A program made the translations under genes and the position numbers. Positions 14,717 to 37,304 of a DNA stretch of 38,344 nucleotides are shown one piece after another (within the stretch, counting starts at the first letter, position 1; each line of letters begins with the position of its first letter). Under the pieces are notes generated by a model that was given only the letters and a program-made list of their open reading frames with translations, was not told the DNA's origin and ran no database searches. The stretch is from the NCBI GenBank assembly GCA_026645775.1, contig JAPKMS010000046.1, positions 1 through 38,344 on the forward strand, given 5' to 3'. This DNA comes from Anaerolineae bacterium (GTDB lineage Bacteria; Chloroflexota; Anaerolineae; CG2-30-64-16).

Positions 14717-15790
14717 TTACCCGCCGAGGTTGTTCAGTTCTTCAAAGGCATGGCGCAGCCGGATCTTGAAGCTTTCCTCGCTGGCGCGCAGCCAGACACG
14801 CGGATCATAGTACTTCTTGTTCGGCTCGTCCGGTCCTTTGGGGTTACCGATCTGCCCTTGCAGATAGCCTTCATTCTTGACGTAGTAGTTCTTGATGCCT
14901 TCCCACGCCGCCCATTGTAGATCGGTGTCGATGTTCATCTTGACGACGCCGTAAGAGACGGCATCCCGGATCTCTTGCAGGGTCGAGCCGGAGCCGCCGT
15001 GGAAGACCAGGTTGAGCGGTTTCTCCGCCGTGCCGTACTTCTCCTGGACGTACACCTGGCAGTTGTGCAGGATGTCGGGGCGCAGCTTCACGTTGCCCGG
15101 CTTGTAGACGCCGTGCACGTTGCCGAACGCGGCCGCGATAGTGAAGCGCGGGCTGACCTTCATCAGTTCCTCGTAGGCGTAGGCGACCTCGGACGGCTGC
15201 GTGTAGAGCCGTGAGCTGCTCACCCCGGTGTTATCCACGCCATCTTCCTCGCCGCCGGTGATGCCCAGCTCGAGTTCAAGGGTCATCTCCATCTTGCTCA
15301 TGCGGTCCAGGTAGCGCTTGCAGGTCTCGACGATCTCCGGCAGTGGCTCTTCCGACAGATCCAACATGTGCGAGCTGAACAGCGGCTTGCCGTGCGTCTT
15401 GTAGTAGACTTCACCCGCGTCCAACAGGCCGTCCACCCAGGGCAGCAGCTTCTTGGCGCAGTGATCGGTGTGCACCATCACCCGTGCGCCGTAGGCCTCG
15501 GCGAGTTGATGGACATGCATGGCGCCCGCAATCGCACCCGCGATGGCCGCCCGCTGCCCGGTGTTGCTGAGGCCTTTGCCCGCGTAGAAAGCCGCGCCGC
15601 CGTTCGAGAACTGGATGATCATCGGCGCGTTCAGTTCGGCCGCGGTCTCCAGACAGCCGTTGACCGTGTTCGTGCCCGTGCAGTTGGCGGCGGGCAGAGC
15701 AAAGTGGTTGGCTTTCGCGTAAGCAAAGACTTTCTGTACATCATCGCCGACGATCACGCCGGCCGGCACCAGTTCATTCAGGGTCGACAT
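14717..15790 (-). CDS. fbaA: class II fructose-bisphosphate aldolase
   Basis: A 357-residue zinc-dependent glycolytic aldolase, interconverting fructose 1,6-bisphosphate with DHAP and glyceraldehyde 3-phosphate. It is of the class IIa type, close in length and motifs to E. coli FbaA: NHFALPAANCTGTNTVN at the N-terminus, the metal and catalytic region VMVHTDHCAKKLLPW, LELGITGGEEDGVDN, FGNVHGVYKPGNVKL and LVFHGGSGST. The ATG at 15790 has an AAGGAGG site; the frame continues upstream without support. It is the last gene of the 15-kb minus-strand cluster, 56 bases after hydA, and ends at a convergent hairpin. I see no separate promoter in the 56-base gap. Confidence 0.96.
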   Translation of the reverse strand: MSTLNELVPAGVIVGDDVQKVFAYAKANHFALPAANCTGTNTVNGCLETAAELNAPMIIQFSNGGAAFYAGKGLSNTGQRAAIAGAIAGAMHVHQLAEAYGARVMVHTDHCAKKLLPWVDGLLDAGEVYYKTHGKPLFSSHMLDLSEEPLPEIVETCKRYLDRMSKMEMTLELELGITGGEEDGVDNTGVSSSRLYTQPSEVAYAYEELMKVSPRFTIAAAFGNVHGVYKPGNVKLRPDILHNCQVYVQEKYGTAEKPLNLVFHGGSGSTLQEIRDAVSYGVVKMNIDTDLQWAAWEGIKNYYVKNEGYLQGQIGNPKGPDEPNKKYYDPRVWLRASEESFKIRLRHAFEELNNLGG

Positions 15791-15846
15791 CGTGTTATTC
15801 CTCCTTGGGTCGTAGTGTCCCACAAGTTCCCAACTCGCGGTACAGT

Positions 15847-17571
15847 CTAATACCAATACTCGGTGTGCAGCAGCTCGTGCGCCTTGTGGCTGCCCGGCTC
15901 ACCCAGGTATTCCTCATAGAGCTTGATGATCGACGGGTTCTCGTGCGACTTGCGGATGGTTTTGTGATCGTCGATCTCGTAGAGCGCCTGCGTGCGCGCC
16001 TGGATCGTCTCCAGCCGCTCGTGGCTGTAGGGTTGGCCGCCGCCGTTGACGCAGCCGCCAGGGCAGGCCATGATCTCGATCACATCGTATTTGGACGTGC
16101 CCTTTTCGATGTTCTCCAGGAGCTTGCGGGCGTTGCCCAGGCCTGACGCTACCGCCACGTTGACGGTCCGGCTGCCGAGGTCGATCGTCGCCTCGCGCAC
16201 GTCTTTCCAGCCGCGTACTGCTTCAAAGTTGACGTCGGCCAGCTCTGCGCCGGTCACTTTCTCATAGACCGTGCGCAGCGCGGCTTCCAACACGCCGCCT
16301 GTTACGCCGAAAATCACACCCGCGCCTGTGGCCTCGCCCAGCGGGTTGTCGAACTCCTCATCGGGCATGTAGCGCAGATCGACCCCCGATTCTTTGAGCA
16401 TCTTGGAGAGCTCGCGAGTTGTGATGACATAGTCCACGTCGCGGGCGCCGCTCGTTTGATGCTCGGGCCGGTTCGCCTCGTACTTCTTGGCCAGGCACGG
16501 CATCACCGATATCATGATCAAGTCCTGCGGCTTCACCCCGATTTTTTCGGCGTAGAAGGTCTTGGCGATCGTGCCGGTCATCTGCTGCGGCGACTTGCAC
16601 GTCGACGGCATGTACTTTAGCTCTGGGAACTGGTATTTCACAAAGTTGATCCAGCCGGGGCAGCATGAGGTCAGGATGGGCAGGTTCTCGTTTGCGGAGA
16701 CCCGCTTGATGATCTCGTTCGCTTCCTCCAGGATCGTGAGATCGGCGCCCCAGCTTGTGTCAAAGACGGCATCGAAGCCCATCCGGCGCAGGCCGGCCAC
16801 CAGCTTGCCTGTGACCGCGGTGCCGATGGGGATGCCGAACTCCTCGCCGATCGCAGCGCGGATGGCCGGCGCGACCTGGACGACCACCTTCTTGGTGGGG
16901 TCGAACAGCGCAGCCCAGGTTTCCTGGATGTAGCCGTGGCCGGTGAGTGCGGCGGTGGGACACACGCTGACGCACTGGCCGCAGTAGGTGCAGTTTGACT
17001 CGGCCAGCGGCTGCATCTCGGCCGGCGCGACCGTCACGGTGAAGCCGCGGCCGTAGGCCGTCAGCGCGTGGACTGTCTGCACTTCGTTGCACATGGTTTC
17101 ACAGCGGCGGCAGCGGATGCACTTGTCGGGATCACGTTTCAGTGCGCCGCTGGTCTTATCAATCGGGAACTCCGACTTCTCGCCCTGATAGCGTTGCGTG
17201 TTGATGCCAAACTCCCAAGCCAGCGTCTGCAGCTCGCAGTCCGTGGACTTGGCGCAGGTGAGGCAGGTGAACGGGTGATCGGAGAGCAACAGCTCCAACA
17301 GCCGCCGCCGCGCAAAGAGCACCCGCTTCGAGTTGGTCGTCACTTTCATGCCCTCGGCAGCGGGTGTGGCGCAGGCCGGCGCCAGGTTACGGCGTCCCTC
17401 CACTTCGACACTGCAGATGCGACATGAGGCGGTCTTGTTCACCATCTTCAGCTCGCCCAGATCAAGATAGCAGAGGGTCGGGATCCGAATGTTGATCTGT
17501 TGGGCGGCTTCCAGGATCGAGGCGCCGTCTGGAACCGTGACGGCCCGGTTATCGATAAACAAATTCACCAT
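15847..17571 (-). CDS. hydA: [FeFe]-hydrogenase catalytic subunit, NADH/ferredoxin-dependent (HndD/HydA type)
   Basis: A 574-residue enzyme making or oxidising H2 in the cytoplasm. From the N-terminus: a [2Fe-2S] domain (Cys34, 50, 53, 67), a His-ligated [4Fe-4S] (His99, Cys103, 106, 112), two ferredoxin clusters (Cys151/154/157/161 and Cys194/197/200/204), then the H-cluster domain. Its ligands are intact: L1 TSCCPGW with Cys303, L2 MPCLAKKYE with Cys359, L3 ACPGGCVNGGGQP with Cys503 and Cys507. A small-subunit-like tail (YEEYLGEPGSHKAHELLH) follows. It is about the length of Desulfovibrio HndD, and shorter than T. maritima HydA, lacking the extra C-terminal [2Fe-2S] domain. AGGAGC precedes the ATG. 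The maturases HydE, HydF and HydG are not in this window. Confidence 0.96.
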   Translation of the reverse strand: MVNLFIDNRAVTVPDGASILEAAQQINIRIPTLCYLDLGELKMVNKTASCRICSVEVEGRRNLAPACATPAAEGMKVTTNSKRVLFARRRLLELLLSDHPFTCLTCAKSTDCELQTLAWEFGINTQRYQGEKSEFPIDKTSGALKRDPDKCIRCRRCETMCNEVQTVHALTAYGRGFTVTVAPAEMQPLAESNCTYCGQCVSVCPTAALTGHGYIQETWAALFDPTKKVVVQVAPAIRAAIGEEFGIPIGTAVTGKLVAGLRRMGFDAVFDTSWGADLTILEEANEIIKRVSANENLPILTSCCPGWINFVKYQFPELKYMPSTCKSPQQMTGTIAKTFYAEKIGVKPQDLIMISVMPCLAKKYEANRPEHQTSGARDVDYVITTRELSKMLKESGVDLRYMPDEEFDNPLGEATGAGVIFGVTGGVLEAALRTVYEKVTGAELADVNFEAVRGWKDVREATIDLGSRTVNVAVASGLGNARKLLENIEKGTSKYDVIEIMACPGGCVNGGGQPYSHERLETIQARTQALYEIDDHKTIRKSHENPSIIKLYEEYLGEPGSHKAHELLHTEYWY

Positions 17572-17581
17572 AGTTGCGCTC

Positions 17582-19477
17582 CTAGTGTCTCAAGATCGCC
17601 TTGAACTTGCACTTCGTCATACACGCGCCGCACTTGATACACCGGCTTTGGTCGATGAAGTGGACTTGTTTCACCGAGCCAGAAATGCAGCTCACGGGAC
17701 ACCCGCGGGCACAGGCGGTGCAGCCGACACACTTGTCAGGGATGACCTCGTAGCACAGCAGCTTCTGGCAGACGCCGGCCGGGCACCGCTTGTCTAAGAC
17801 GTGCGCCTCGTATTCGTCCCAGAAGTATTTCATCGTGCTCAGCACCGGGTTCGGCGCCGTCTGACCCAAGCCGCACAGGGCGGTATCCATGATCACGTTA
17901 GAGAGCTCGCGCAACTCCACCAGGTCGGCCGGCGTGCCCTTGCCTTCGGTAATGTTGGTCAGGATTTCGTGGAGGCGTTTGGTGCCGACGCGGCAGGGCA
18001 GACAGCGGCCGCACGACTCATCCACGGTGAACTCCAGATAGAATTTGGCGATGTTCACCATGCAGTCTTTTTCGCTCATCACGATCAGGCCGCCGGAGCC
18101 CATGATCGAGCCGATCTTCGCCAGTGACTCGTAGTCGATGGGCGTATCCAGGAACTGCTTGGGGATGCAGCCGCCGGAGGGACCGCCCGTCTGCGCGGCC
18201 TTGAACTCCAGACCCCCGCGGATGCCGCCGCCGACGTTGTAGATGATCTCGCGCAGGGTGGTGCCCATCGGCACTTCCACCAGGCCGACGTTGTTGATCT
18301 GGCCGGCCAGCGCAAACACCTTGGTGCCCTTCGAGGTCGCGGTGCCGATGCTGCTGTACCACTCAGCCCCTTGCATCATGATCGCCGGCACGTTGGCCAG
18401 GGTTTCTACGTTGTTGACGATGGTGGGCTTGTCCCACAGGCCGGCCTGGGCCGGAAACGGCGGCTTGGTGCGCGGCTCGCCGCGTTCGCCCTGGATCGAG
18501 TGGATCAGCGCGGTCTCCTCGCCGCAGACGAACGCGCCCGCGCCGAGTTTGATGTCAATATCGAAGTCGAAGCCCGACCCCAGGATATTTTTGCCGATCA
18601 GGCCCAGCTCACGCGCCTGCTTGATGGCGATTTGCAGGCGGCTGACCGCCAGTGGGTATTCGGCCCGGATGTAGACATAACCCTGATGTGCACCAATCGC
18701 GTAGGCGGCAAGCGCCATGCCCTCGATTACACTGTTGGAGTCACCTTCCATGATGGAGCGATCCATGAATGCGCCTGGGTCGCCTTCATCGGCATTGCAG
18801 ATGACGAATTTCTCCGCGCCTTGATACGCGCGGCCGAACTCCCACTTCTTGCCGGTGGGGAAGCCTGCGCCGCCGCGGCCGCGCAGCCCCGAACGTTTCA
18901 TCACGTCAATGACCTGATCCGGCGTCATCTCGGTCAACGCTCGGCCCAACGCCTGGTAACCGCCGGTGGCGATGTATTCTTCGATGTCCTCGGGGTTGAT
19001 CAGCCCGCAGTTACGCAGGGCGATGCGCTGCTGCTTGCGGTAGAAGGACATCGCATGCTGCGTCTCGACCTTTTGCTTGAGGACGGGTTCCTCGTAGAGC
19101 AGCCGGCGCACGCGCTGGTTGTTGACGAGATGGGTATCCACGATCTCAGCGACATCCTCGGGCTTCACCTGTACATAGAAGACATCATCCGGGAAGACCT
19201 TGACGATGGGCCCCTTCTCGCAGAACCCGAAGCACCCCGTGGCAGAGGCCCGCGCGACGCCGCTCAGGCCTTCCTTGGCGATCAGCCGCTGGAACTCGGT
19301 GACGATTTCCTGGCTTTCGGATGCATGGCAGCCTGTGCCGCCGCAAACCAGGATCATCCGGCGGGCGCCCTCGCGCGTGCCCAGGTTCACCCGGCTGTCG
19401 AGCAGCGGTTTGAGGCGCTTATGGACGCCCAGCAGCTCCTGATATGAGGCAAGTGGTTGCTTGAGTTCGTTAGGCAT
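17582..19477 (-). CDS. hydB: hydrogenase flavoprotein subunit, NADH-binding (HydB / HndB-HndC fusion, NuoF-like)
   Basis: A 631-residue subunit that binds FMN and NADH and links them to the hydrogenase. The N-terminal thioredoxin-like [2Fe-2S] domain uses Cys45, Cys50, Cys82 and Cys86; this is a separate HndB protein in Desulfovibrio and is fused here as in T. maritima HydB. Then comes the NuoF core with RGRGGAGFPTGKKWE (FMN/NADH), CNADEGDPGAFMDR, an SLBB segment and the [4Fe-4S] motif CGRCLPC starting at Cys489. The C-terminus adds two ferredoxin clusters (CVGCTACARGC, CIKCGACMTKC). Together these are the marks of electron-bifurcating hydrogenases, so it is not a complex I subunit. It overlaps hydC by eight bases and ends 10 bases before hydA. 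Confidence 0.95.
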   Translation of the reverse strand: MPNELKQPLASYQELLGVHKRLKPLLDSRVNLGTREGARRMILVCGGTGCHASESQEIVTEFQRLIAKEGLSGVARASATGCFGFCEKGPIVKVFPDDVFYVQVKPEDVAEIVDTHLVNNQRVRRLLYEEPVLKQKVETQHAMSFYRKQQRIALRNCGLINPEDIEEYIATGGYQALGRALTEMTPDQVIDVMKRSGLRGRGGAGFPTGKKWEFGRAYQGAEKFVICNADEGDPGAFMDRSIMEGDSNSVIEGMALAAYAIGAHQGYVYIRAEYPLAVSRLQIAIKQARELGLIGKNILGSGFDFDIDIKLGAGAFVCGEETALIHSIQGERGEPRTKPPFPAQAGLWDKPTIVNNVETLANVPAIMMQGAEWYSSIGTATSKGTKVFALAGQINNVGLVEVPMGTTLREIIYNVGGGIRGGLEFKAAQTGGPSGGCIPKQFLDTPIDYESLAKIGSIMGSGGLIVMSEKDCMVNIAKFYLEFTVDESCGRCLPCRVGTKRLHEILTNITEGKGTPADLVELRELSNVIMDTALCGLGQTAPNPVLSTMKYFWDEYEAHVLDKRCPAGVCQKLLCYEVIPDKCVGCTACARGCPVSCISGSVKQVHFIDQSRCIKCGACMTKCKFKAILRH

Positions 19478-20021
19478 AGAGCGGGACCTCCTCTCCGACG
19501 ATCTCGACCAGGTAGTGCTCCAGGATGTCGTGGGCCTTGCCCGGCTGAACCTTGCCGTAGACCTTGTCGTTGATGGTGATCACCGGCGCCAGCCCACAGG
19601 CGCCGACGCAGCGCAGGCTCTCGATGGAGAACTTGCCATCCGCAGTCACCTGACCGGCCTTGATGCCCAAGACGCGTTCAAATTCCTGCAGCACCTTTTC
19701 GGCGCCGTTCACATAGCACGCCGTGCCCAGGCACACGTTGATCCGATACTTGCCCTTCGGGGTCGTCGTGAAGTAGTTGTAAAAACTGATGACCCCGGAG
19801 ACTTCGGCGTGGCTGACCGCAAAGCGGTCGGCGATGTGGAGCTGAAGCTCTTCGGGCAGGAACCCGAAGAGTCCTTGCGCCTTATGAAGGACTTGAATGA
19901 GAGTATCCTTCCGGCGCGCATCATCGGGAGAGATGTGCAACTCCTCGATGAAGGCATCGAGCTGTGCATACAGCTCGGGCGGCAGTACCCGTTCTTCGGG
20001 TTGCGGATTGACTCTAGCCAT
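19470..20021 (-). CDS. hydC: hydrogenase small [2Fe-2S] subunit (HydC/HndA, NuoE-like)
   Basis: A 183-residue NuoE-like subunit carrying one [2Fe-2S] cluster: CLGTAC (Cys97, Cys102) and CVGAC (Cys138, Cys142), the family's C-x4-C...C-x3-C pattern. The helical N-terminal part (KDTLIQVLHKAQGLFGFLPEE) is also typical. It completes a HydABC trimer with the two genes downstream. Its ATG has a GGAGG site that lies inside the end of the upstream ABC ATPase gene, and the two genes overlap by eight bases. Hydrogenase synthesis is therefore tied to translation of the transporter genes. Confidence 0.94.
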   Translation of the reverse strand: MARVNPQPEERVLPPELYAQLDAFIEELHISPDDARRKDTLIQVLHKAQGLFGFLPEELQLHIADRFAVSHAEVSGVISFYNYFTTTPKGKYRINVCLGTACYVNGAEKVLQEFERVLGIKAGQVTADGKFSIESLRCVGACGLAPVITINDKVYGKVQPGKAHDILEHYLVEIVGEEVPLYA

Positions 20022-20748
20022 ACAATACCTCCATGGGATTGGCCTTGAGACGTGCCGAATCGTGCACCGTGTATTCGGCCAGACGACTGGCTGTGAAGAG
20101 CAGCACCGACTCGGTCAGCAAGGGTATTTCGTCGACAGTATGGGTCACGAACAATACGGTGATGCCCGGGTAGCTGTCCAGGATGTGGCGGATGATCGCT
20201 CGTTTCGCGCGCAAATCGATGGATTTGAACGGCTCATCCATCATCACGAAATCGGGTTCCGTCAGGAATCCTCGGATCAGGGCGGTCTTTTGCTTCATGC
20301 CGCCCGACAGTTGGTACGGATAGTGATTCACGTACGGCGTGAGGTCGCATACCTCAAGCCACCGCTGATATTCCGCCCACAGCGCTGGCGTCGTGGGCGC
20401 CCTTGCTGAGCGCTCTTTGGCGCTCCGAATCTTAATCGGCAGCAGGATGTTCTCCTCGACCGTCATGTAGGGAAACAGCCGAGGCTCCTGAAAGATCGTG
20501 CACGGGTTCACCGCCGTCAGCGTGAATTCTCCGCCGTCGGCGTGATCGACGCGGGTCAGGATGTTGATCAGGGTGGTCTTACCCGCCCCGGACGGCCCGA
20601 AGACCGTCACCCGCGCACCTTGCGGGATCGAAAAAGACAAGTCTTCGATCACCGCGGGTGTGGACGCCCCGTAGTGTTTTGTCAGGTGCCTCACTGTGAG
20701 CAGATCGTTCGCCATTGGGGTGTTAGCCTGCCGGATTCTGTCTATCAT
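20014..20748 (-). CDS. ABC importer ATPase, NitT/TauT family
   Basis: A 244-residue ATP-hydrolysing subunit. It shows Walker A FGPSGAGKTT, the Q-loop in TIFQEPRLFPYMTV, signature LSGGMKQK, Walker B FVMMDEPF and the H-loop in VTHTVDE. It is related to the nitrate/taurine/aliphatic sulfonate importer ATPases (SsuB, TauB, ThiZ). The start at 20748 overlaps the permease stop as ATGA; an in-frame ATG at 20715 is a less coupled alternative. The 3' end overlaps hydC. The substrate is unknown. Confidence 0.92.
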   Translation of the reverse strand: MIDRIRQANTPMANDLLTVRHLTKHYGASTPAVIEDLSFSIPQGARVTVFGPSGAGKTTLINILTRVDHADGGEFTLTAVNPCTIFQEPRLFPYMTVEENILLPIKIRSAKERSARAPTTPALWAEYQRWLEVCDLTPYVNHYPYQLSGGMKQKTALIRGFLTEPDFVMMDEPFKSIDLRAKRAIIRHILDSYPGITVLFVTHTVDEIPLLTESVLLFTASRLAEYTVHDSARLKANPMEVLYG

Positions 20749-21506
20749 TCGGGATAAAAGTACTTCTTGAGAAATACAGCAAAGACGAAGTTCTGCGCGA
20801 TCTCGAACAAGGCTGACAACAACAAGATGACCGCCAGATAGAACAGCACTGTCTTCATGTCAAAGTGAATGGATGCCACATTTAGCAGGTACCCGACACC
20901 GTCCTGGGTTCCAATGTACTCGCCCAGGATGACCACTTTGAGCGATAGCCCGAACCCGAGGCTCAGATTGCTCTGAAACGTCGGGATCAGCGCCGGCACA
21001 AACAGGTGTCTGATCAAGTCCCTGCGCGTCGCTCTGACCGAGAGCAGGTAGTGCTCCAGATCCACATTGCGCTTGGCCAAGGCGTTCGCCGTGTTAATCG
21101 TTACGGTCGGCAGCGTAAGCAACGTCACCAACGCGATGGGCACCCAATTCCCGATGCCGAGCACCAACAGCAAGATAACGCCCATGATAGCGCCGGGGAT
21201 CACCTGCAGCGCGACCATGAAACTGTTCAGGTGCTCGGTGACGTGCAGCGTGAAGGCCAGGATGCCCAACACGGAGCCGGCCCCGAACGCCAACACAAAG
21301 CCCATCACCACGCGATACAGCGTGATGCCCAGGTGCGGCAGCAGGGTCGCGTTGAGCAGGGACGGCGCGGCTGCCAGCACCACCACCGGTGAGGGCAAGA
21401 TGTAGCTTGGAAAGAACAGCGCCAGGACAAACCAGATGCTGACCAGCAGGGCCAGCCCGACGATGTTATTGCGGACTGCGGTAGAAAAACGCGTCGAACG
21501 TGTCAT
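20745..21506 (-). CDS. ABC importer permease, NitT/TauT family
   Basis: A 253-residue membrane protein with about six hydrophobic segments and the binding-protein-dependent permease domain. The cytoplasmic coupling (EAA-like) region is PALIPTFQSNLSLGFGLSLK followed by VVILGEYIG, matching the NitT/TauT permease pattern of 'P..lp.i..glr...g.aw...v.aE'. The only ATG that leaves the first helix intact is at 21506, which makes it overlap the binding-protein gene by 41 bases, unusually long for this operon. No clear ribosome site is visible there, so reinitiation from the upstream gene is likely. Confidence 0.9.
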   Translation of the reverse strand: MTRSTRFSTAVRNNIVGLALLVSIWFVLALFFPSYILPSPVVVLAAAPSLLNATLLPHLGITLYRVVMGFVLAFGAGSVLGILAFTLHVTEHLNSFMVALQVIPGAIMGVILLLVLGIGNWVPIALVTLLTLPTVTINTANALAKRNVDLEHYLLSVRATRRDLIRHLFVPALIPTFQSNLSLGFGLSLKVVILGEYIGTQDGVGYLLNVASIHFDMKTVLFYLAVILLLSALFEIAQNFVFAVFLKKYFYPE

Positions 21507-22527
21507 CGAGCGGCTTGCCTATGGTCTGGTAATAGCCCCGGATAGCCTCTGCCAGCGCATCCGAGCTGATGAAAGCGAAATCCGTTCTACCCAAGGAAGA
21601 AAGCAGCACTTTGTCAGGCAGGCCGAGCTGGGCTTGGGTTTGCTGTATCGCCGCCGTCGGATCCTGTTGAATGGTTTGCAAAGCGGCTGCAATTTCATCA
21701 TTGAAGCGGGCAATCACGTCGGGATGCGCAGCCGCCCAATCGCGCATGACGAAGGGCGTCACCTGCGGATACCCGGTGCGCGTCCCGGTTGCCGCATCCC
21801 ATTTCGCCCGATAGTTCAGCGAGACGTAGACATCGGGCTGGCTCTCGACCAGCGTCACGGACGGTTCGGGCAGGGCCACCGCGCCGGCTTTCCCCTGTTT
21901 CAACAACTCGACCGACGAGGCGAAAGGTGAGTAGATCGGCTTGATGTCGGTCTTCCACACCAGGCCCTCCTGCTCAACCAGGAACTGGGTCATCTCTTCG
22001 ATGGGCGAGCCTTCAAAGGGGATGTAAATTTCCTGCCCCTTCAAGTCGGCGAAGCGCTCTACTTTCTTGCCGTGCGTCACCAGGTAGGTCATGCCGGCCA
22101 CGTAGGAATCGATCACCTGAACGGGCGCGCCATTCTTGAACAGATCCACGCCCACCGAGAGGCCGGTCACCAGGATGTCTGCGTCACCGCGCAGGAACAA
22201 CGAGTTGGCCTGGGCATGATTGGTGAAGATCGTGACTTCAACATCGTCCATGTGTTGGGCCGCGATGAGCACCGGGATGGACGATGGAGTCGCCGGTGCA
22301 TAAACCACCAGCTTTGTGTGCGGGGCCGGAGCAACGGTCTGGGTTGCCGCGGGGAAAGCCGGCGCAGGCGAGGCAGCCGTATCTGAAGCGGTTTCCCGAG
22401 CGGGCGGCAGGGCCACGCAGCCGGACACCAGGATCAAGATCATTGCGGCCAAGGCCACCGTCCGGAGCTGACTCGCGAGGCCGGTCCGCTCCCTGCGACG
22501 GAACTGAGCGATATCGGATAGGTGCAC
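21466..22527 (-). CDS. ABC importer substrate-binding lipoprotein, NitT/TauT (NMT1-like)
   Basis: A 353-residue exported binding protein. The N-terminus has a hydrophobic stretch ending in the lipobox LVSGC, so Cys37 is the likely lipidated residue. It is followed by a Pro/Ala/Thr-rich linker to about residue 65. The binding domains include SIPVLIAAQHM, FTNHAQANSLFLRGDADI, a TYLVTHGKKVERFADLKGQEI hinge (typical 'dLkGk.ia' motif) and AVALPEPSVTLVE. These are shared with taurine, sulfonate, thiamine-precursor and related binding proteins; the ligand is not predictable. It starts with GTG at 22527 behind AAGGAG, nine bases after mgsA. Confidence 0.88.
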   Translation of the reverse strand: MHLSDIAQFRRRERTGLASQLRTVALAAMILILVSGCVALPPARETASDTAASPAPAFPAATQTVAPAPHTKLVVYAPATPSSIPVLIAAQHMDDVEVTIFTNHAQANSLFLRGDADILVTGLSVGVDLFKNGAPVQVIDSYVAGMTYLVTHGKKVERFADLKGQEIYIPFEGSPIEEMTQFLVEQEGLVWKTDIKPIYSPFASSVELLKQGKAGAVALPEPSVTLVESQPDVYVSLNYRAKWDAATGTRTGYPQVTPFVMRDWAAAHPDVIARFNDEIAAALQTIQQDPTAAIQQTQAQLGLPDKVLLSSLGRTDFAFISSDALAEAIRGYYQTIGKPLDDTFDAFFYRSPQ

Positions 22528-22536
22528 GAAGTCTCC

Positions 22537-23139
22537 TTAACCTGCCGCTTGCACCATGGCTTGCAGCGCATCTTCGGTCGGCAGTGTGAATTCGGGCGTT
22601 GCATCGGCCTCTGGTGCAGGCTCTGACGTCGGGACGGCCTCCGGTGCAGCTTCCGACGGCTTTTCGGCTGCCTGGACCATACTTTCGACCTGCCGCTCCC
22701 GATGCGACGTGTAATCGACCACGATCCGCTCGTATTCACCTTTCATCAATGTGGAAGAGACCATGAAATCAGCCGAGGCCCGATCGCAGGCCACCGGGAT
22801 ATTCCACACCAGTGCGATGCGCAGCAGCGCTTTCACGTCCGGGTCATGGGGCATCTGGGTGAGCGGGTCCCAGAAGAAGATCATGAAGTCGATGTTGCCT
22901 TCGGCGATTTTGGCGCCGATCTGTTGATCGCCTCCCAGCGGCCCGCTTTGCAGCTTCGTGACCTGAGTCTGCAACACTTCTTCGAGCAGTTTGCCGGTGG
23001 TTCCGGTGGCAAAAAGCTCATGCTCAACCAGAAGCTCCCGGTTCCATTTGGCCCAGTCCAGCAGCCCGGGCTTCATCGCATCGTGCGCCACCAGGGCGAT
23101 CCTCTTTTTCTGACCCATGCGAATAATCGTGTGTTCCAT
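22537..23139 (-). CDS. mgsA: methylglyoxal synthase with Pro/Glu-rich C-terminal tail
   Basis: Converts DHAP to methylglyoxal and phosphate, a glycolytic bypass used when phosphate is short or sugar phosphates pile up. Family motifs are all present: [36 protein letters not shown] with the catalytic Asp, and [20 protein letters not shown] with the active-site His and Asp, then [13 protein letters not shown]. The catalytic part ends at about residue 150, where E. coli MgsA (152 aa) also ends. Here about 50 further residues form a low-complexity tail rich in Pro, Glu and Ala ([19 protein letters not shown]). Its start (ATG at 23139) has a GGAAGG site and lies behind its own promoter. It leads the transporter-hydrogenase genes. 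Confidence 0.95.
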
Positions 23140-23226: not shown

Positions 23227-23255
23227 ATTATACATCTTTTCGGCCGGATCGCCAA
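23227..23255 (-). promoter_or_regulatory. sigma70-type promoter for the mgsA-ABC-hydCBA genes
   Basis: On the minus strand: TTGGCG, a 17-base spacer, a perfect TATAAT. It lies in the 138-base gap between the AOR gene and mgsA, with an 88-base leader before the ATG. It would allow the methylglyoxal/transporter/hydrogenase genes to be expressed apart from pfk-pyk-AOR. Confidence 0.72.
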
Positions 23256-23277: not shown

Positions 23278-25032
23278 CTAGACCTGTTGCGCGTAGGTCT
23301 CGATGGCGCGGCGGATAAACCCCTCATCGATCATGCCGGTCGGCGTCGGCGTTTCCAGGATCCGTTTCGGGATGCGCAGGGCGCTGGGATCGAAGCCCTC
23401 GCGCAGCTTAAATGCTTGTTTGCGATGCAACGTGTCTGCGGCGAACCGCGTCAGATCGTCGGCGGTCCAATCGAAGCCGACCGTGGCCAGTGCCTTCAGG
23501 ACGATATCGGGCGTGTAGACGCCGCGCGCGAACAGGCAGATGACCAGGCTGGTCAACACCTGGCGCCAGCGTTCCTCTTCCAGCAGATCATTCGCCACGC
23601 CGTCAGGGGTGAGCGTCTCACCTTTGGCGGCTGCCCGCTGATCCAGGCTGTAACCGGCGCTGTCAAGGTGGCTATGGCGCGCGCCGGTCAGGTAGCCCAG
23701 GTGGCACCCTGGGCCCGTGTGGTATCCCGGCATTTCGTTTTTACCGAAGGTGAGCGCATAGTCGGCGCCGCCATAGACCGAGGCGGCGTAGTCGGCCCCG
23801 CGCGCCAGCGCCCGGTAAAAGTCGTTGGGTTGGCTCACAATGCGTTGGGTGGCGGCGATATAGGCGGGGTAGTTGCCCCAGGCCAGCTCCAACCCATCGG
23901 TCTCGCGCACGGAAATGAGACCGCGCTGCAGCGCCTCGGTGGCCCAGGCCAGGGTCACGCCCGCGCTCATCACGTCGAGCCCTTGCACCTCCGCCTCATC
24001 CAAGAGCTGGAACATGCTGCTGACGTCGCTGCCGCCCAGCAGGCTGCCCATCGCGAAGATCGGCTCATGATCGTACCCGACCATCGAGGTTTTGTAGAAG
24101 TACGGCTCCTTTGGGTACGCCAGCCGCAAGGTGCCCAGGTGGACGCACGCGACCGGGCAGTGGGCACAGGCCACGCGGCGGCCCAGGTATTCCGAGGCCA
24201 GCCGTTCGCCCGAGATGGCCTCGGCTTCCTCGAAGTGTCCGCTCTGCAAATTGCGGGTCGGCAGCGCGCCCATCGCGTTCAGCGGCAGCACGTTGACCGC
24301 GGTGCCCAGCTCATGATATTTCTTCATCACCGGCGATTCGGTGGCCGATTTGTAAAGCGCATCGTAAAGCGTCCGGTAGGCTCGGCGGTCGGCGACGGGC
24401 AGCGAGCGCTGGCCGGAGATCGTCACTCCCTTCAGCAGCTTGCTGCCGAAAACTGCGCCCAGGCCCAGGCGGCCGAAGTGCCGGTAAGTCTCAGTGATCA
24501 CCGAAGCATAGGACACGCCGCGTTCGCCCGCGCGGCCGATGCGCATGATCGAGCGTACACCCGCGCCGCTTTCGCGCTGCCGCATGATGGTGCCGGCGGT
24601 GTACGCGCTGTGCAGCCCCCACAGTGCGCTGGCATCCCGGAAGTAGACGTGACCTCCCTCGATCGCCACGTAGACCGGTGATGTGCTGACGCCGCGGATG
24701 ACGATGGCGCCGTAGCCCGCCATGCGGATCGCGACCGCGCTGCGGCCGCCCGCGTGGCTCTCGCCCAGGTTACCGGTGTGGGGCGACTTGAACATCGCGA
24801 CCGTCTTCGAGGCGATAGGGTAGAGGCCGACAAGGGGACCGACGGCCAAGACGATCGGGTTGCCGGGCCCCAACGGGTCGGTTCCCGGCTTGCACTCCTC
24901 TTCCAGGAGGCGGATTGCCACTCCCGCGCCGCCCAAGGCCGTCTCAAAAAGCTCAGGACGCTCATCTACCGAGAAGCGGCGGCGGGTGAGGTCAATGGTG
25001 AGCACCCGAGACAAAGGATCATTTTTCAGCAT
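23278..25032 (-). CDS. tungsten/molybdenum aldehyde:ferredoxin oxidoreductase family enzyme
   Basis: A 584-residue AOR-family enzyme that oxidises an aldehyde to its acid at a bis-pterin W or Mo centre and passes electrons via a [4Fe-4S] cluster. Cluster ligands are Cys289, Cys292, Cys296 (CAHCPVACVH) and Cys499 (VICLFARG), nearly the spacing of Pyrococcus AOR. The pterin-binding start ALGGAGVAIRLL and HAGGRSAVAIRMAGYGAIVI are recognisable. The usual 'PEYET' segment reads GYDHEPIFAMGS, so it belongs to a divergent subgroup. I chose the ATG at 25032, ten bases after AAGGA; the ATG at 25041 is only about one base from it. The gene overlaps the polyferredoxin. In a glycolytic operon it could be a glyceraldehyde-3-phosphate enzyme (GAPOR-like) or act on methylglyoxal; both are inference. 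Confidence 0.92.
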   Translation of the reverse strand: MLKNDPLSRVLTIDLTRRRFSVDERPELFETALGGAGVAIRLLEEECKPGTDPLGPGNPIVLAVGPLVGLYPIASKTVAMFKSPHTGNLGESHAGGRSAVAIRMAGYGAIVIRGVSTSPVYVAIEGGHVYFRDASALWGLHSAYTAGTIMRQRESGAGVRSIMRIGRAGERGVSYASVITETYRHFGRLGLGAVFGSKLLKGVTISGQRSLPVADRRAYRTLYDALYKSATESPVMKKYHELGTAVNVLPLNAMGALPTRNLQSGHFEEAEAISGERLASEYLGRRVACAHCPVACVHLGTLRLAYPKEPYFYKTSMVGYDHEPIFAMGSLLGGSDVSSMFQLLDEAEVQGLDVMSAGVTLAWATEALQRGLISVRETDGLELAWGNYPAYIAATQRIVSQPNDFYRALARGADYAASVYGGADYALTFGKNEMPGYHTGPGCHLGYLTGARHSHLDSAGYSLDQRAAAKGETLTPDGVANDLLEEERWRQVLTSLVICLFARGVYTPDIVLKALATVGFDWTADDLTRFAADTLHRKQAFKLREGFDPSALRIPKRILETPTPTGMIDEGFIRRAIETYAQQV

Positions 25033-25492
25033 GGGGCACATTTCCTTCGGGGCTCGGAGTTGGCGTCGTGAAGCCCGTCGCCAAGGGGTCGTCTATCTCC
25101 TCCAACGCCAGCACATCGTAGGGGCAGTAGGAGGCGCAGTAGCCACAGTAGACACAGATTTCGGGCTTATTTTGTTCGTGATCCCACATCACGGCCCCGA
25201 AGGGGCACGCCTCCGCACAGTTGTGGCAGCCGATGCACAGATCGGGTTTCAAACGCACGCCGCCGCCGGGCCGCATGGGCAGCGCGTCCGTCGGACACAC
25301 GCGGGAACAGGGCGGATCAGGGCATGCCCGACAGACCACCACGACATACCCCTTGCGGATGCCACCGGCCGACCTGACCCAGATGCTCGATGCGGACAAC
25401 CCGCCGACGCCGGGCCGGCGGGCACAAGCGAACATGCAGGATTGGCAACCCACACACCGATCCGCGTCCAAGATCGCGAGCCGTTTCGCCAT
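25019..25492 (-). CDS. four-cluster [4Fe-4S] polyferredoxin, AOR electron partner
   Basis: A 157-residue protein with sixteen clustered cysteines: CVGCQSCMFAC, CRACPDPPCSRVC, CIGCHNCAEAC and CVYCGYCASYC, which together bind four [4Fe-4S] clusters. This is the layout of DmsB/HycB-like electron transfer subunits and of the ferredoxin partners encoded beside some AOR genes. It has no Tat signal, so it is cytoplasmic. The short tail after residue 140 is not recognised. A GGAGC site precedes the ATG. It follows pyk by 27 bases and overlaps the AOR gene, so the pair is co-translated and very probably a complex. Confidence 0.92.
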   Translation of the reverse strand: MAKRLAILDADRCVGCQSCMFACARRPGVGGLSASSIWVRSAGGIRKGYVVVVCRACPDPPCSRVCPTDALPMRPGGGVRLKPDLCIGCHNCAEACPFGAVMWDHEQNKPEICVYCGYCASYCPYDVLALEEIDDPLATGFTTPTPSPEGNVPHAEK

Positions 25493-25519: not shown

Positions 25520-27292
25520 TCAGTCCTCTACATGCGCCAAAGCGCTGGGTCGCTCAAACACCAACCCGCGCTTAGCATCCAACACGATCTCTGCACCGTC
25601 AGGCAGGGCCGCAACCCCCTCGCGGATGCCGATCACAGCCGGCAGGCCCAGCTCCAACGCCAGAAGCCGGCAGTGGGATTCGGGTGCGCTGTCGGACGTG
25701 ATCAAGCCGGCGGCGCGGCGCAGGAGGGGGACAAACGAACGATCGGTGCGCGGCGTTACCACGATCTCGTCGGGGGTGACGGGGCGCAGGTCCTTCGGGA
25801 AGGGCGGATCCAGGCGGCGCACCCGACCGATGATGCGGCGCTCGCCCAAACCGGTGCCGTGTGCCAGCACGCGCTCGATCAGGTGGACCTTCATCAGGTT
25901 AGTGGTGCCCACGCCGAAGCCCACCGAGCCTCCGGTGACGATGGCGACATCCCCCTCGGCCAGGTAGCCGCGGCGTTGGGCCGCTTCAATCGCACTGTCG
26001 ATCACCTGATCGGTGTTATCGGAGCGGTGGGCCAGGAGTGGATAGACCCCCCATACCAACATGAGCTGACGCTGGGTGATCGGGCTGGGCGTCACGGCCA
26101 CGATGGGGCAGTGGGGGCGGAACCGGGCGATCGTACGCGCCGTATCGCCGGAGACCGTCGGCGCGACGATGGCGGCGGCGCTGAGATCCGTGGCGGTTTC
26201 GACCGAAGCATGGGCCACCGCCTCGGCAAAGGTGCGACCGGGCCGGGCCGCTACCTGTCGTACGGGCAGTGCCGCCTGTGCGGTCTCCGTCTCGCAGGCA
26301 ATGCGCGCCATCGTCTCTACGGCCAGCACCGGGTATTTGCCCGCGGCTGTCTCACCCGAGAGCATGATCGCATCCGTGCCATCCAGGATCGCGTTGGCGA
26401 CGTCGCTGGCCTCGGCGCGCGTGGGCCGCGGGTTGCGGATCATCGAATCCAGCATCTGGGTGGCGGTGATCACCGGCTTGCCGGCGAGGTTGCACTTATG
26501 AATGATCTGTTTTTGGATCATCGGCACGGCTTCGGTGGACATCTCGATGCCCAGGTCGCCGCGCGCGACCATGATGCCATCGGCGGCGGCGATGATGGCG
26601 TCGATGTTGTCCACCGCCTCGGGTTTTTCGATTTTGGCAACCACCGGGGTGGGGCGGCCTAGCGTCGTGAGCTGGCGGATCATGTCCTTGAGGCTCAATA
26701 CCTCTTCGGCGGTGCGCACAAAGGAGATGGCAATCCAATCTACTTGCTCATCGAGCGCAAACTTCAGGTTTTCCCGGTCTTTCTCCGTGATGGCGGGGAT
26801 GGAGAGCGCGGCGCGGGGCAGATTGAGGCCCTTGTTGGAGGTAAGCAGGCCATCCATCACCACTTGCGTCGTGATTTCCTTGCCTTCAACATTCACGACC
26901 TTCAACTCCAGTAAGCCGTCATCGATCAAGATGCGGTCGCCGGCCCGGACGGCCTCAGGCAAGTGTTCGTACTGCACGGGCACCCGGCCGGGCCCGCCGG
27001 TGATCTGCTCGGTCGTCAAGATCAGCGTCTCACCCGCCTTCAGCGGGATGCCCTCCGGCGGCATAATGCCGACCCGCAGCTTCGGCCCTTGCAGATCGGC
27101 CAGCAGCGCCACAGGTTTGTTCAGCCGTTCCGAAATCTGCCGGATGCGCTGGATGTTTTCGCGATGGAAGGCCAGGTCGCCGTGAGACATATTGAGGCGT
27201 GCAACATCCATCCCCGCATGAATCAAGGCTTCCAGTGTGATTGGGTCACGGCTGGCTGGCCCGACCGTACAAACGATTTTTGTGCGTAGCAT
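25520..27292 (-). CDS. pyk: pyruvate kinase with C-terminal PEP-utiliser-like domain
   Basis: A 590-residue glycolytic kinase turning phosphoenolpyruvate and ADP into pyruvate and ATP. It has TKIVCTVGPAS at the N-terminus, the ARLNMSHG loop, LADLQGPKLR, the active-site region VVAKIEKPEAVDNID and MVARGDLGIE, and ATQMLDSMI. It is longer than E. coli PykF (470 aa) because of an added C-terminal domain with LITSDSAPESHCRLLALELGLPAVIG, related to the mobile domain of PEP synthase. That extra domain is known from Geobacillus/Bacillus pyruvate kinases of about 587 residues. A GAGGAG site precedes the ATG; it follows pfk by 21 bases. Confidence 0.96.
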   Translation of the reverse strand: MLRTKIVCTVGPASRDPITLEALIHAGMDVARLNMSHGDLAFHRENIQRIRQISERLNKPVALLADLQGPKLRVGIMPPEGIPLKAGETLILTTEQITGGPGRVPVQYEHLPEAVRAGDRILIDDGLLELKVVNVEGKEITTQVVMDGLLTSNKGLNLPRAALSIPAITEKDRENLKFALDEQVDWIAISFVRTAEEVLSLKDMIRQLTTLGRPTPVVAKIEKPEAVDNIDAIIAAADGIMVARGDLGIEMSTEAVPMIQKQIIHKCNLAGKPVITATQMLDSMIRNPRPTRAEASDVANAILDGTDAIMLSGETAAGKYPVLAVETMARIACETETAQAALPVRQVAARPGRTFAEAVAHASVETATDLSAAAIVAPTVSGDTARTIARFRPHCPIVAVTPSPITQRQLMLVWGVYPLLAHRSDNTDQVIDSAIEAAQRRGYLAEGDVAIVTGGSVGFGVGTTNLMKVHLIERVLAHGTGLGERRIIGRVRRLDPPFPKDLRPVTPDEIVVTPRTDRSFVPLLRRAAGLITSDSAPESHCRLLALELGLPAVIGIREGVAALPDGAEIVLDAKRGLVFERPSALAHVED

Positions 27293-27313: not shown

Positions 27314-29536
27314 TCAGGAAGGTTGATATTTGCTCATCAGTCGTGCGGTGGATCGCAGCTCCAGCCACCATTGCTCAAGAGGACGCAGGTGTTCCATATC
27401 GCACAGCACTGCGATGTCATCCAGGCTGTGAATTTGGACATGGCCGTTTTGCATGCCGATGACCGCCCCGTTCGCCTGGCCGGCCCCTTCCACCAGGAAG
27501 GTCAGGCAGCGCGCAGCCAGCCGGGTGGCCTGGATGCGGTCGAACGGCGAGGGATCGCCGCCCTGCTGCAGGTGGCCCAAGATGGCTTCCCGCACGTCGA
27601 AGAGATCTTCCCCCTCTTGTTCGAACAGCGTGGAAATGAATTTCGCCGTATACAGGGGGTTGGCCTTTTCATTGAGGATCATCAGGCTCTTGCGCTTACC
27701 TTGCCGGAAGCTTTCCTTCATCTCTGCCAGGTCGGTCTCCAGGTCGTGCAGGGTGATGCCTTCTTCGGGCAGATAGGCGCGTTCTGCACCGGTCGCGAGG
27801 CTGCTCATCAGGGTCAGATAGCCACACTGCCGCCCCATCACCTCGATCACGAAGCAGCGGCCCGTGGCCACCGCCGATTGCTTGATTTTGTCCACGACTT
27901 CCACAATGTTGTTGAGCGCCGTATCCGCGCCGATGCTGATCTCGGAGCCAGGCAGGTTGTTGTCGATCGCGGCGGGCATGCAGATGATCGGGATGTTGAA
28001 CGCCTCGTACTCGTCGCGGGCGGAGGTCAGCCGGTGGGCCGCCTCGTAGGCCGACCACCCGCCGATGACCAACAGGCCGTCGATGCGCTGGCGCCGCAGG
28101 GTGCGGGCGACGGCCTCGATCTCGGCGCCGGTTGGGATCGTGCGGCTGGTGCCCAGTTCTGAGCCGCCCATCGAGCCCCAGCCGTGGATGCTCATCCAGT
28201 CGAATTCTTCCATCCGGTCATCGATCAGGCCTTGGAAGCCATCGTGAACGCCCAGGACGATGTGCCCCTGGTCGATGGCCAGCCGTGCCGCCGCGTGGAC
28301 GGCGGTGTTCATGCCCGGGGCCGATGCGCCCGCGGTGAGGATCGCCAGCCGTAAGCGCCGCTGATTGGGCTGCGGCGGATGCGGCAATGCCCGGCTCAGG
28401 GTGCGGAACGTCTGATACGCTTCATTGAAGCTGCTCCCTCGCAGCGCCATGGCGCGCTCGTAGTCCTGGGCAGCGATGGCTTTGGGAACCTCGCGCGTCT
28501 GCTCGACGCACTCCATCAGCGGGTGGCGGCGGATCCGGTTGTAGCGCATACCGATCATCTGTGGCTCGCTCTCCGGGCCGGCAGCCAGCAGCTCATCCAC
28601 GGCCGCGGCGCCGACCAGGGTGCTCATCCAGCGGTCGAAGGCGCTCGGTGCGCCGCCGCGCTGGACGTGACCCAGGATCGTTGACCGCACGTCCTCGCCA
28701 AGTCGCTCCGCCAATATTTTGCGCACGTATTCGGCCGAAATGGCGTTGCCGTGCTTGTCCCGCGCGCCCTCCGCGACGACCACCGTGAGGTCGCGGCGGC
28801 CTGCGGCGCGGCCGGCCTTAAGCAGATCGCACATCTGAGTTTCCCAGTCATCTACGCTGGGTGGGCGTTCCGGGAAGAAGGCGTAGTCTGCGCCGCCGGC
28901 GAGCGCGCTCATCAAGGCCAGGTAGCCGCAGTTGCGACCCATCACCTCGACGACGAAGCTGCGCCGATGGCTGACCGCGGTGCTGCTGATCTGGTCGAGC
29001 GCGGTCGTGATGCGGTGGAGCGCAGTGTCGGCGCCGATGGTCATGTCGGTGCCGTAAAAGTCGTTGTCGATCGAGCCGACCAGGCCGGCGATGCTGAGGA
29101 AGGGGTGGGCCGCAGCCAACTCGGCCGGCACCTGTTGGGTTTCCACCAACTCGGCGAGCAGCGAGGCCCATTCGTGGCGGAAGAGGTCGGCGCCGGTCAG
29201 GCTGCCATCGCCGCCGATGACCACCAGGCGGTCGATCTCGCATTCCAGCAGATTTTTGGCTGCTTTCAGGCGGCCCTCATGGGTGCGAAATTCGGCGCAG
29301 CGCGCGGTGCCAATCACTGTGCCGCCGCGCTGTAAGATTCCGCTTACGTCATCCCAGCCCATGTTGCGGATGCGGTCGCCGCCTTCCACCATCCCCTGGT
29401 ACCCTTCGTAGATGGCGTAGACCGCGACCCCGCGGTTGAGCGCGGTGCGCACCACGGCGCGCAGTGCTGCGTTCATGCCCGGTGCGTCGCCGCCGCTGGT
29501 GAGAACGCCGATTGCTTTTACTGCGGTGTCTGGCAT
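27314..29536 (-). CDS. pfkA: fused two-domain 6-phosphofructokinase, eukaryotic PFK-1-like
   Basis: A 740-residue protein made of two PFK domains (about 8-370 and 395-735), against about 320 residues for normal bacterial PFK. The N-half is catalytic: SGGDAPGMN at 14-22, GGDGSLTGAD from 108, and GSIDND with the base Asp157. The C-half has lost catalysis: GGDGS has become GGWSA at 492-496, SGGD has become AGAS at 402-405, and IDND has become IDNN at 524-527. This division, and segments such as LGHVQRGGAPSAFDR and IKQSAVATGR, closely follow animal and fungal PFK-1, whose C-half is an allosteric site. The ATG at 29536 has a GAGGAGG site; 37 upstream codons are unsupported. It heads the glycolysis/hydrogenase cluster. 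Confidence 0.95.
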   Translation of the reverse strand: MPDTAVKAIGVLTSGGDAPGMNAALRAVVRTALNRGVAVYAIYEGYQGMVEGGDRIRNMGWDDVSGILQRGGTVIGTARCAEFRTHEGRLKAAKNLLECEIDRLVVIGGDGSLTGADLFRHEWASLLAELVETQQVPAELAAAHPFLSIAGLVGSIDNDFYGTDMTIGADTALHRITTALDQISSTAVSHRRSFVVEVMGRNCGYLALMSALAGGADYAFFPERPPSVDDWETQMCDLLKAGRAAGRRDLTVVVAEGARDKHGNAISAEYVRKILAERLGEDVRSTILGHVQRGGAPSAFDRWMSTLVGAAAVDELLAAGPESEPQMIGMRYNRIRRHPLMECVEQTREVPKAIAAQDYERAMALRGSSFNEAYQTFRTLSRALPHPPQPNQRRLRLAILTAGASAPGMNTAVHAAARLAIDQGHIVLGVHDGFQGLIDDRMEEFDWMSIHGWGSMGGSELGTSRTIPTGAEIEAVARTLRRQRIDGLLVIGGWSAYEAAHRLTSARDEYEAFNIPIICMPAAIDNNLPGSEISIGADTALNNIVEVVDKIKQSAVATGRCFVIEVMGRQCGYLTLMSSLATGAERAYLPEEGITLHDLETDLAEMKESFRQGKRKSLMILNEKANPLYTAKFISTLFEQEGEDLFDVREAILGHLQQGGDPSPFDRIQATRLAARCLTFLVEGAGQANGAVIGMQNGHVQIHSLDDIAVLCDMEHLRPLEQWWLELRSTARLMSKYQPS

Positions 29537-29692: not shown

Positions 29693-29722
29693 AGTATACG
29701 TTGCGCCGGGCGGTTTTGTCAA
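29693..29722 (-). promoter_or_regulatory. near-consensus sigma70 promoter for the pfk-pyk-fd-AOR operon
   Basis: On the minus strand: a perfect TTGACA, an 18-base spacer, then TATACT (five of six). The TGA inside TTGACA is the stop codon of the upstream M28 peptidase gene. The leader before the pfk ATG is about 150 bases. Confidence 0.78.
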
Positions 29723-31149: not shown

Positions 31150-34100
31150 TTACTCCGTTACGGTGAACACGCTCCCGGCGCCGCGGCCCCACACCTCGGG
31201 GAAGTACATCTGGTACGCGGTGGCCGGCAGCGTCAGGAAGACGCCGGGCAGGCTGGCCCGGATCTGATAGGTAAACTGATAGGTGCCGGGCGTCAGCTCG
31301 GAGGCAAACATCACGGTCTTCTCATCTCGCAGTTCGACATGCGTGGGCGTCCACGCCCAATCGTACCACGGGCTGGGCTGATCCTGCTTCATTTCCGGCC
31401 CTTGCGCCGTGCTGCTGGTGGTGCGCAGACCGGTGTCGATCGCCTCGGCGCCGGCCGGCAGCGGGTCTTCCAGGATCACATAGTGCAGATTGCTCGGCAC
31501 GACCACGGTCAGCTTGACCCGGATCACATCGCCGACCTTGGCCTGTGTGATGGCGGGGCAAGCGGTCTCGTCAAAGCGCGTCTTGCCGGCCTGGTTCGCC
31601 GCCTGCTGCAGGGCAGTCACGCAGTCGGCCAGCCGATACTCGCGGTTCACGGAGACGCCCCGGCTTAGCGAGCCGACCTCTTCCACGGGCAGATACGACT
31701 TCAGATGCGCCGTGTAGTAGAGCTGGCCCTTGCCGGTTTGGTCGCCCGCGGCGGTGCGGCTGATCACCAGACCGTTGGTCTGGTCCAGCAGGAGCTGGCC
31801 GATGTCGGCGCGGAGCGTGGCCGCGTCCTTGACGGTGGCTGGCGTCACGCTGCCGGCGCCCAGGCTCTCGCCATTGAGCGTCACGGTCCAGGTGTAGTTG
31901 CCCGCCAGCTCGCCGGTGGCCGCCATCCAGTCGGTCAGCGCCATAATGGCCCACGCGTTCTCCTGGGTGGTTTCCCAGCGGTCGGCCGTGCGGGCACTCA
32001 TCAGCCAGCGCACGGTGTTGGGGCCTAGGCTGTTTTGCGGATCCAGCCGGGCCAGGGCCGCCAGCGCGATGGAGGTGGTGCGGGTGTCGGTGTTCATGTT
32101 CCAGAAATCGGTCCACCCCTCCTCCCAGTGTGCCGCGGTGGCGCTCACCACAGCCTTGCCGGTGATGTCGGCCAGCAGTGTCTTGATGCGGGCGGCTGCG
32201 GCCTCGTCGTCGATCAGCTCGAAGGTCAGCGCCAGGTAGCCCTGGGCGTAGGTGCTCAGCCGCTCGCGAACCTCGAACAGCGCGCCCGCCCGATTCGGCT
32301 CCATCTGGCCCGCTTCGGCCAGTGCGTAGAGCACAAACGCCTGGCTGTTGAGCTGCCAATCCTTGAGGTCTCCCGGCGCCCGGAGGTTGCGAGTCAGGAA
32401 TTGCGCGCCGCGGTCGAGCACGGTCTGATCGACCGCGAACCCGGCCTGCTTGGCCTTCGCCAGACCGAACACGATGTATGCGCTGACCGCGATGTTGCTG
32501 TCGTCGTTCTGCCACCAGCCCCAGCCGCCGTCGATGTGCTGTTTGGCGTAGATGCGCTGCAGGCCCACGCCTACCTGCTGCGGCAGCCTGGTTTCCAGGT
32601 CGGGATTGGCGCCCCCCAGCTTCTTCAGCGCCGCGTACGAGACCACGTTGGGCAGGAACCGGCTCATCGTCTGCTCGACGCATTCGTAGGGGTAGTGCTC
32701 CAGGTAGGTGAGCCCGCCGAGCATGCCGGCCGCCAGGCTCGGTTCCAGCGTCACAGCCAGCTCGCCCCGGCTCGGGTCAGCGTTAGCCGGCAGCCGCACC
32801 AGCTCCAGCCGATCCTCGTTCAGATCAACCTGGCCGCTTGTGCCGGTGACTTCGGGGGTGGTGTAGCGGTGCACGGGCAGCGTGATCTCGACCGCATCAG
32901 ATAGCTTGGCTGCGACCGCGATCGCCTGCATCTGCACCTTCACCTGGTCGACCGCGGCCTGCACGGTGACGGGCCAGGCGATCTTGGCGGTGCTTTCCGC
33001 CGGCACAGTGATCTGGCTGGCGAGCGGCGCTGTCGTTTCCAGACCGGTTGGCGCCAGTGTCACAGCCACCGAGAGCTCCTGCGGGGTGGTGTTTTGGATC
33101 ACCGCAGCGATTTCAGCTCGGTCACCGGCCACGAAGAAGCGCGGGAGCACCGGGCGCACCAGCAGCGCCTGGGTGGCGATGATATCGGTGCGGCTCTGGC
33201 CCACCCGCGTATCCTCGGTGGCCGCCCGCGCGTCCATGGTCCAGGTGGTCAGGTTGTCGGGCAGGGTCACCTGCACCTGCGCCTTGCCGTCGGCGCCGGT
33301 TTTGAGCGAGGCGGTCCAGTACGCGATATCGGGGAAGTCGCGGCGCACCGTGGGCGCCAACCCTTCGCCACCGCCGCCACCGCCGCCTTTGCCGCCTTTG
33401 CCGCCCTCGGCTAACTGTGCGACCAGCCGGTCGATGTTGTACACCAGCGTGATGCCGGTCTGCACGCCCAGCCCGCGCTGGCTGTAGAAGCGATCCATGA
33501 GGGCGCCGGCGTTGTCAGTGGCCAGGGAGAGCACCGCCTTGTCGACCAGCGCCAGCGAAACGTCGGCCTGCACCGGTTTCCCCGCGGCATCCAGCGTCTG
33601 CACGTCCCAGGTGACGGTATCGCGCGGCGCGACCTTCACCGGCCCGGCGCCTGCTGCGCCGCGCGGCGTCACGATCACCTGCAACTGCTTGTCGGCCACT
33701 GAGACCTTGAGCTGGACCAGCCCGACCTTGAACGAGGGCGCGGGGCTGGTCGCGTCGATGCCTTTCATGATCACCACCGACACGAACGCATTGGGGGCGT
33801 ATTCCGGCTTAATCGGCAGTTTCAGCACTTCGCTGTTGCCCGCCAGCTCGATGACCTGGTGGCTGAGCACAGTTCCGCGCTCGATCGTCACCAGCGCCTT
33901 CACCTTGCCCTGGTAGGGACTGGGGATCAGTATCTCGGCGGTGTCGCCGGCTGCGTACTCGGTCTTATCGGCCACCAGCTCGATGCGGTCGTTGTTTTCC
34001 TGCCGCCACGGCACATACGCGCTGCCGCTGACCCACACGTAGGCCGCGCTGCGCAGCGCGTGGCCCCGGCTGTCGCGCGCGCTCGCATCGATTTTGTATT

Positions 34101-37170: not shown

Positions 37171-37304
37171 GATGTTACCTCCCCCGGAAGGGACACACAA
37201 GAGATCAGGGAACTGCAAGTTTTGACGGCAGTGCTGGGAGAAAAGTTCCCCAATCCGAGAACAGAACGCAGATGACGAATCCAGATGCGGCAGATCTCTG
37301 AGCC

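Follow-up and report, generated by a model that had tools for sequence, protein, structure and literature searches.

We propose that worS and worL, an AOR-family gene pair in the window (the whole stretch of DNA that was analyzed, 38,344 nucleotides), add a new member to the bacterial GOR clade, one whose glycolytic setting is unusually explicit. Specifically, we consider it probable, at roughly three chances in four, that WorSL is a bacterial GOR (Class II WOR) that converts glyceraldehyde-3-phosphate (GAP) to 3-phosphoglycerate beside GAPDH and PGK, with the HydABC hydrogenase as a possible outlet for the electrons. An earlier sequence-only reading of this DNA had favored a GAPOR-like enzyme, and this is supported, as far as sequence reaches, by membership in the GOR clade, by signature residues, and by two different glycolytic gene arrangements; the type, however, is that of the bacterial GOR.

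The same reading had described an AOR-family enzyme and a four-cluster ferredoxin directly 3' of pfk and pyk with mgsA next to them, which the domains, the 16 cysteines of WorS, and the coordinates confirm (Table 1). On the minus strand, the order is pfk, pyk, worS, worL, mgsA, a three-gene ABC transporter, hydC, hydB, hydA, and a class II aldolase gene, with successive gaps, from pfk to the aldolase gene, of 21, 27, -23, 138, 9, -41, -4, -8, -8, 10, and -10 bp. The hydrogenase and aldolase genes, which lie 3' of mgsA and the ABC transporter on the same strand, had not been mentioned before. If both promoter-like sites are real, pfk, pyk, worS, and worL would form one unit and the genes from mgsA to the aldolase another, making a second transcription unit from mgsA onward possible; no terminator-like site was found in the 138-bp gap between worL and mgsA. 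The ABC transporter genes, which sit between mgsA and the hydrogenase genes and overlap hydC, encode a binding protein for which no Pfam match was found.

Table 1. Features of the window, in order of decreasing position
Feature	Position	Strand	Details
Open frame	31150-37689	-	2179 aa; same strand as WorSL
Promoter-like site ahead of pfk	29693-29722	-	TTGACA-18-TATACT, 11/12; consensus match only
pfk, tandem-fused 6-phosphofructokinase	27314-29536	-	TIGR02478 996 bits (cut-off 708); likely start ATG at 29536, preceded by GAGGAGG
pyk, pyruvate kinase with C-terminal PEP-utilizer domain	25520-27292	-	NCBIfam PRK06354 709 bits (cut-off 462)
WorS / GorS, small subunit, four [4Fe-4S] clusters	25019-25492	-	157 aa; 16 Cys
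WorL / GorL, AOR-family large subunit	23278-25041	-	587 aa; AFOR_N and AFOR_C
Promoter-like site between WorL and mgsA	23227-23255	-	TTGGCG-17-TATAAT, 10/12; consensus match only
mgsA, methylglyoxal synthase	22537-23139	-	NCBIfam PRK05234 213 bits (cut-off 84)
ABC transporter	20014-22527	-	binding protein 21466-22527; permease 20745-21506 (BPD_transp_1); ATPase 20014-20748
HydC, NuoE-like	19470-20021	-	2Fe-2S_thioredx
HydB, NuoF-like, C-terminal ferredoxin domain	17582-19477	-	Complex1_51K, NADH_4Fe-4S, Fer4
HydA, [FeFe]-hydrogenase	15847-17571	-	all three H-cluster motifs intact
Class II fructose-bisphosphate aldolase	14717-15856	-	TIGR01520 565 bits (cut-off 348)

Both Pfam domains of WorL score well past their cut-offs (AFOR_N 213 bits, AFOR_C 220 bits), and the protein is predicted to bind a W- or Mo-bis-pyranopterin and one [4Fe-4S] cluster. 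The four cluster ligands, C292, C295, C299, and C502, are all intact, as had been claimed, and are invariant throughout the clade with the single exception of one C299S. By alignment, T247, E326, Y440, and H458 correspond to Thr243, Glu313, Tyr427, and His448 of Pyrococcus furiosus AOR (PfAOR), the four second-shell residues that the bacterial GOR clade retains (PMC12096430). The suggestion that GYDHEPIF takes the place of the usual PEYET holds in part: the segment is real and its flanks are unlike PEYE, but it surrounds E326, which pairs with the catalytic Glu313, so that the catalytic residue is kept and the motif is not lost. The 16 cysteines of WorS form four clusters, making it the counterpart of the small subunits in 9mqx and 8c0z. 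With this four-cluster subunit adjacent to WorL, and with no WorN or WorABC genes, the pair has the makeup of a Class II WOR; no WorX or ThiF adjoins it in the window. The catalytic site of WorL is predicted to hold tungsten. A TupA-like protein encoded in the same genome (37% identity) renders tungsten uptake plausible, while for the metal in WorSL itself it is only a hint.

Relatives of WorL were sought in 249 genomes from the class to which the window belongs and 398 genomes of the Anaerocolumna phylum. The former contained 17 further orthologs at 61% to 81% identity and four more at 43% to 48%, all other AOR matches reaching at most 38% over the full length (one partial match, 42%). In the Anaerocolumna phylum, clade members match at 43% to 64% over most of the length, after which identity drops to 37% or less. 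Apart from that one partial match, a gap therefore separates clade members (at least 43%; 22 of the 249 and 39 of the 398 genomes) from other AORs (at most 38%). In a careful 41-row tree, in which PfAOR, AaAOR, 9g7j, and 9mqx served as outgroups and which covers a subset of the published WOR clades (92 in all), a 25-row clade with support of 100/100 unites the window WorL with the GOR of Caldicellulosiruptor, and all four references fall outside it. This clade splits into sub-clade A, with the window protein, and sub-clade B, with the Caldicellulosiruptor bescii GOR (CbGOR), each supported at 100/99. A quick 80-row tree that included FOR recovered the same grouping (SH-aLRT 100). Phylogenetic placement, the check proposed at the outset, thus puts WorL with the Caldicellulosiruptor enzyme and apart from PfAOR, FOR, AaAOR, and WOR1.

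About 35 residues show conservation of at least 94% across both sub-clades and are rare in other AORs. Those near the catalytic residues include Y323, H441-T442-G443, H456-S457, D460, G463, and Q468, and others are R100, R163, R167, H188, H243, H301, and R493. The motifs YDxE, YHTG, and RHSH, odd as they may look, belong to this shared signature. The arginines and histidines among these residues might serve to hold the phosphate group of GAP.

The Caldicellulosiruptor reference was recognized through gene content. Seven single-contig genomes of the Anaerocolumna phylum (2.4 to 2.9 Mb) each contain one 589-aa WorL match of 47% to 49% identity, and exactly one AFOR_N gene each. We took them as Caldicellulosiruptor because the cellobiose 2-epimerase of C. 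saccharolyticus, a query sequence verified against PDB 4z4j, is 88% to 95% identical in six of the seven (in one as two pieces). In genome G431, worS and worL are followed by ThiS-like and ThiF genes, genes for a TupA-like protein, a permease, and an ATPase, and two MoeA-like genes. In C. bescii, Athe_0820 opens a unit of two genes, for ferredoxin and "XOR," and a three-gene tungstate transporter begins with Athe_0824 (PMC6391272). Since the G431 order fits that from Athe_0820 onward, its AOR gene matches C. bescii gorSL, and we infer that G431 is C. bescii. The gorSL genes encode a ferredoxin-dependent GAP oxidoreductase found in all known Caldicellulosiruptor (PMC8579813); the enzyme works beside GAPDH (PMC8269263), and CbGOR, made up of a large and a small subunit, is a Class II WOR (PMC13328260).

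WorSL resembles C. bescii GOR (gorSL, formerly XOR) at 48% identity, with worS directly upstream in both, and the two share the 16 cluster cysteines, the four catalytic residues, the signature motifs, and a genomic GAPDH. They differ in sub-clade and in surroundings, the C. bescii genes adjoining ThiS/ThiF, tungstate transport, and MoeA genes, whereas the window pair follows pfk and pyk. They also differ in that a search of the window for a Rex box found none; the C. bescii locus (L152) has a Rex-like site at 8602-8619, but it belongs to a set of 8 matches against about 5 expected by chance, and we do not use it as proof. Given the different sub-clades and an identity of about 48%, the substrate could have drifted. 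To our knowledge, CbGOR is the only member of the whole clade to have been assayed, and one more assayed member would tell whether GAP is the substrate clade-wide.

Gene context allows the GOR reading to be weighed against a broad-range, aldehyde-detoxifying WOR, acting on acetaldehyde, lactaldehyde, or similar compounds, that happens to lie beside pfk and pyk. WorS adjoins WorL in 56 of 58 clade loci, and one of the two exceptions lacks room before the contig end. Other neighbors differ over most of the clade, as accidental placement would have it: they include SHMT/GcvT, GyrB, VanW, an aldo-keto reductase, and an RNA methylase. One locus (L067) has GH3 and GH67 genes downstream of WorSL. In 57 other clade loci, we found none of PFK, PYK, FBA, MGS, TIM, PGK, or GAPDH near WorSL. 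Glycolytic neighbors thus occur in only two related genomes, the window's and G003, and are not a clade-wide trait. Most WORs with a known role, moreover, act on several aldehydes (PMC13328260).

Nevertheless, in G003, the closest relative (about 82% identity, same family), WorSL lies inside a glycolysis supercluster (contig C223; L061, L182, L183), in the middle of about 27 kb of one strand that carries nearly complete glycolysis and PTS genes. Its order is PTS EIIC, FBPase, PGI, a LacD-type aldolase, enolase, TIM, PGK, PTS EI-HPr-EIIA, PTS EIIBC, a glycosyltransferase, WorS, WorL, GlgE, a GlgC-like gene, GAPDH, LDH, a transporter, PGM, and MGS. As this has only WorSL and MGS in common with the window, glycolysis genes have gathered around the pair in two different ways, which speaks against an accident. 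Together with the CbGOR signature residues and the separation of WorL from PfAOR, AaAOR, 9mqx, and 9g7j, this leaves the detoxifying enzyme an unlikely explanation.

The presence of mgsA in both arrangements, 138 bp past WorL in the window and as the last gene of the G003 supercluster, is what speaks for another proposal of the sequence-only reading, namely that sub-clade A WorSL is a methylglyoxal:ferredoxin oxidoreductase in a path from DHAP through methylglyoxal to pyruvate. We found no independent support for this: apart from the nearness of mgsA in the window and one relative, the linkage does not recur (0 of 57 other clade loci), a promoter-like site separates WorL from mgsA, and the clade contains a GAP-oxidizing enzyme. 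We know of no glycolytic bypass via methylglyoxal with ferredoxin reduction, and an overflow valve for triose phosphate is another explanation of mgsA in a glycolysis cluster. We therefore rejected the bypass as the main reading and regard it as quite improbable. The least probable proposal is that WorSL docks on NAD-linked HydABC in the Class IV manner and hands the electrons of GAP on to H2 or NAD with no free ferredoxin involved; although the HydCBA genes lie in the same closely packed run, HydB/HydC genes (L178 and L179) or HydA (L159) occur near WorSL elsewhere, and Class IV WORs consist of WorSL and a WorABC that resembles HydABC (PMC12096430), the three H-cluster motifs are all present in the window HydA, which is thus a hydrogenase rather than WorA, WorL lies in a different clade from 9mqx (Class IV), mgsA and the ABC transporter intervene, and HydABC is missing from the vicinity of most clade members.

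Comparison with other characterized enzymes narrows the assignment to bacterial GOR further. Archaeal GAPOR (Pyrococcus, Methanococcus) shares the predicted reaction with WorSL, but it is monomeric and belongs to an unrelated clade without Tyr427 and His448 (PMC12096430), both of which the window WorL keeps; it was ruled out because the curated GAPOR_Arch model, which has a cut-off of 1300, gave only 22.7 bits. YdhV (Class V) was likewise ruled out (PRK09849, 136 bits against 868). P. furiosus AOR (1aor) and the enzymes close to it have the fold, cysteine ligands, and catalytic Thr/Glu/Tyr/His of WorL, but they form a separate clade with a broad aldehyde range and without the GOR signature residues. 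The Aromatoleum AOR (8c0z, Class III) and bifurcating WOR1 (9mqx, Class IV) combine a large with a four-cluster small subunit, as WorSL does, but their large subunits belong to other clades, and the window lacks a WorN gene and a WorABC module. Assignment to the bifurcating Class IV was rejected, since HydA carries the H-cluster.

For the bacterial GOR, the following mechanism may be envisaged. Using a tungsten site with bis-pyranopterin, WorL would turn GAP directly into 3-phosphoglycerate, and the two electrons would pass from its [4Fe-4S] cluster through the four WorS clusters to ferredoxin, as the cysteine pattern and CbGOR suggest. The reduced ferredoxin could in turn supply the HydABC hydrogenase, whose genes lie downstream, as has been suggested for C. 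bescii; the best PDB matches of HydA are the bifurcating HydA proteins 8a6t and 7q4v, and its NCBIfam name is that of the NADH-dependent group A6. Since the genome also has two GAPDH genes and a PGK gene adjacent to TIM, the GOR route would run in parallel rather than alone, as in C. bescii, giving up one ATP for low-potential electrons. Coexpression with pfk and pyk, judged from the gene packing, would couple this ferredoxin branch to glycolytic flux.

If this is true, the nonphosphorylating, ferredoxin-reducing GAP oxidation of Caldicellulosiruptor extends to a different bacterial class and is tied to glycolysis by gene order in at least two genomes. It also suggests that the uncultured host may route electrons released in sugar breakdown directly to ferredoxin, and estimates of ATP and H2 yield for such fermenters would change. 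Only 5 of the 92 WOR clades have a member of defined role (PMC13328260).

The distribution of the two sub-clades is of some interest in itself. Three second-tier WorL sequences of the window's class (L078, L079, and L080; 43% to 48% identity) were placed in the sub-clade of CbGOR, so that both GOR sub-clades are present in this class. Conversely, sub-clade A GOR extends to a few members of the Anaerocolumna phylum (L144, L145, L148, and L181; 60% to 64%), which suggests transfer between phyla. As to the neighboring pfk, it is of the tandem-fused eukaryote type, and its second half, with GGWSA and AIDNN instead of GGDGS and SIDND, looks as if it were regulatory. Of 199 genomes of the class, 63 have a long match to it, and a second, diverged copy lies on contig C74 of the same genome.
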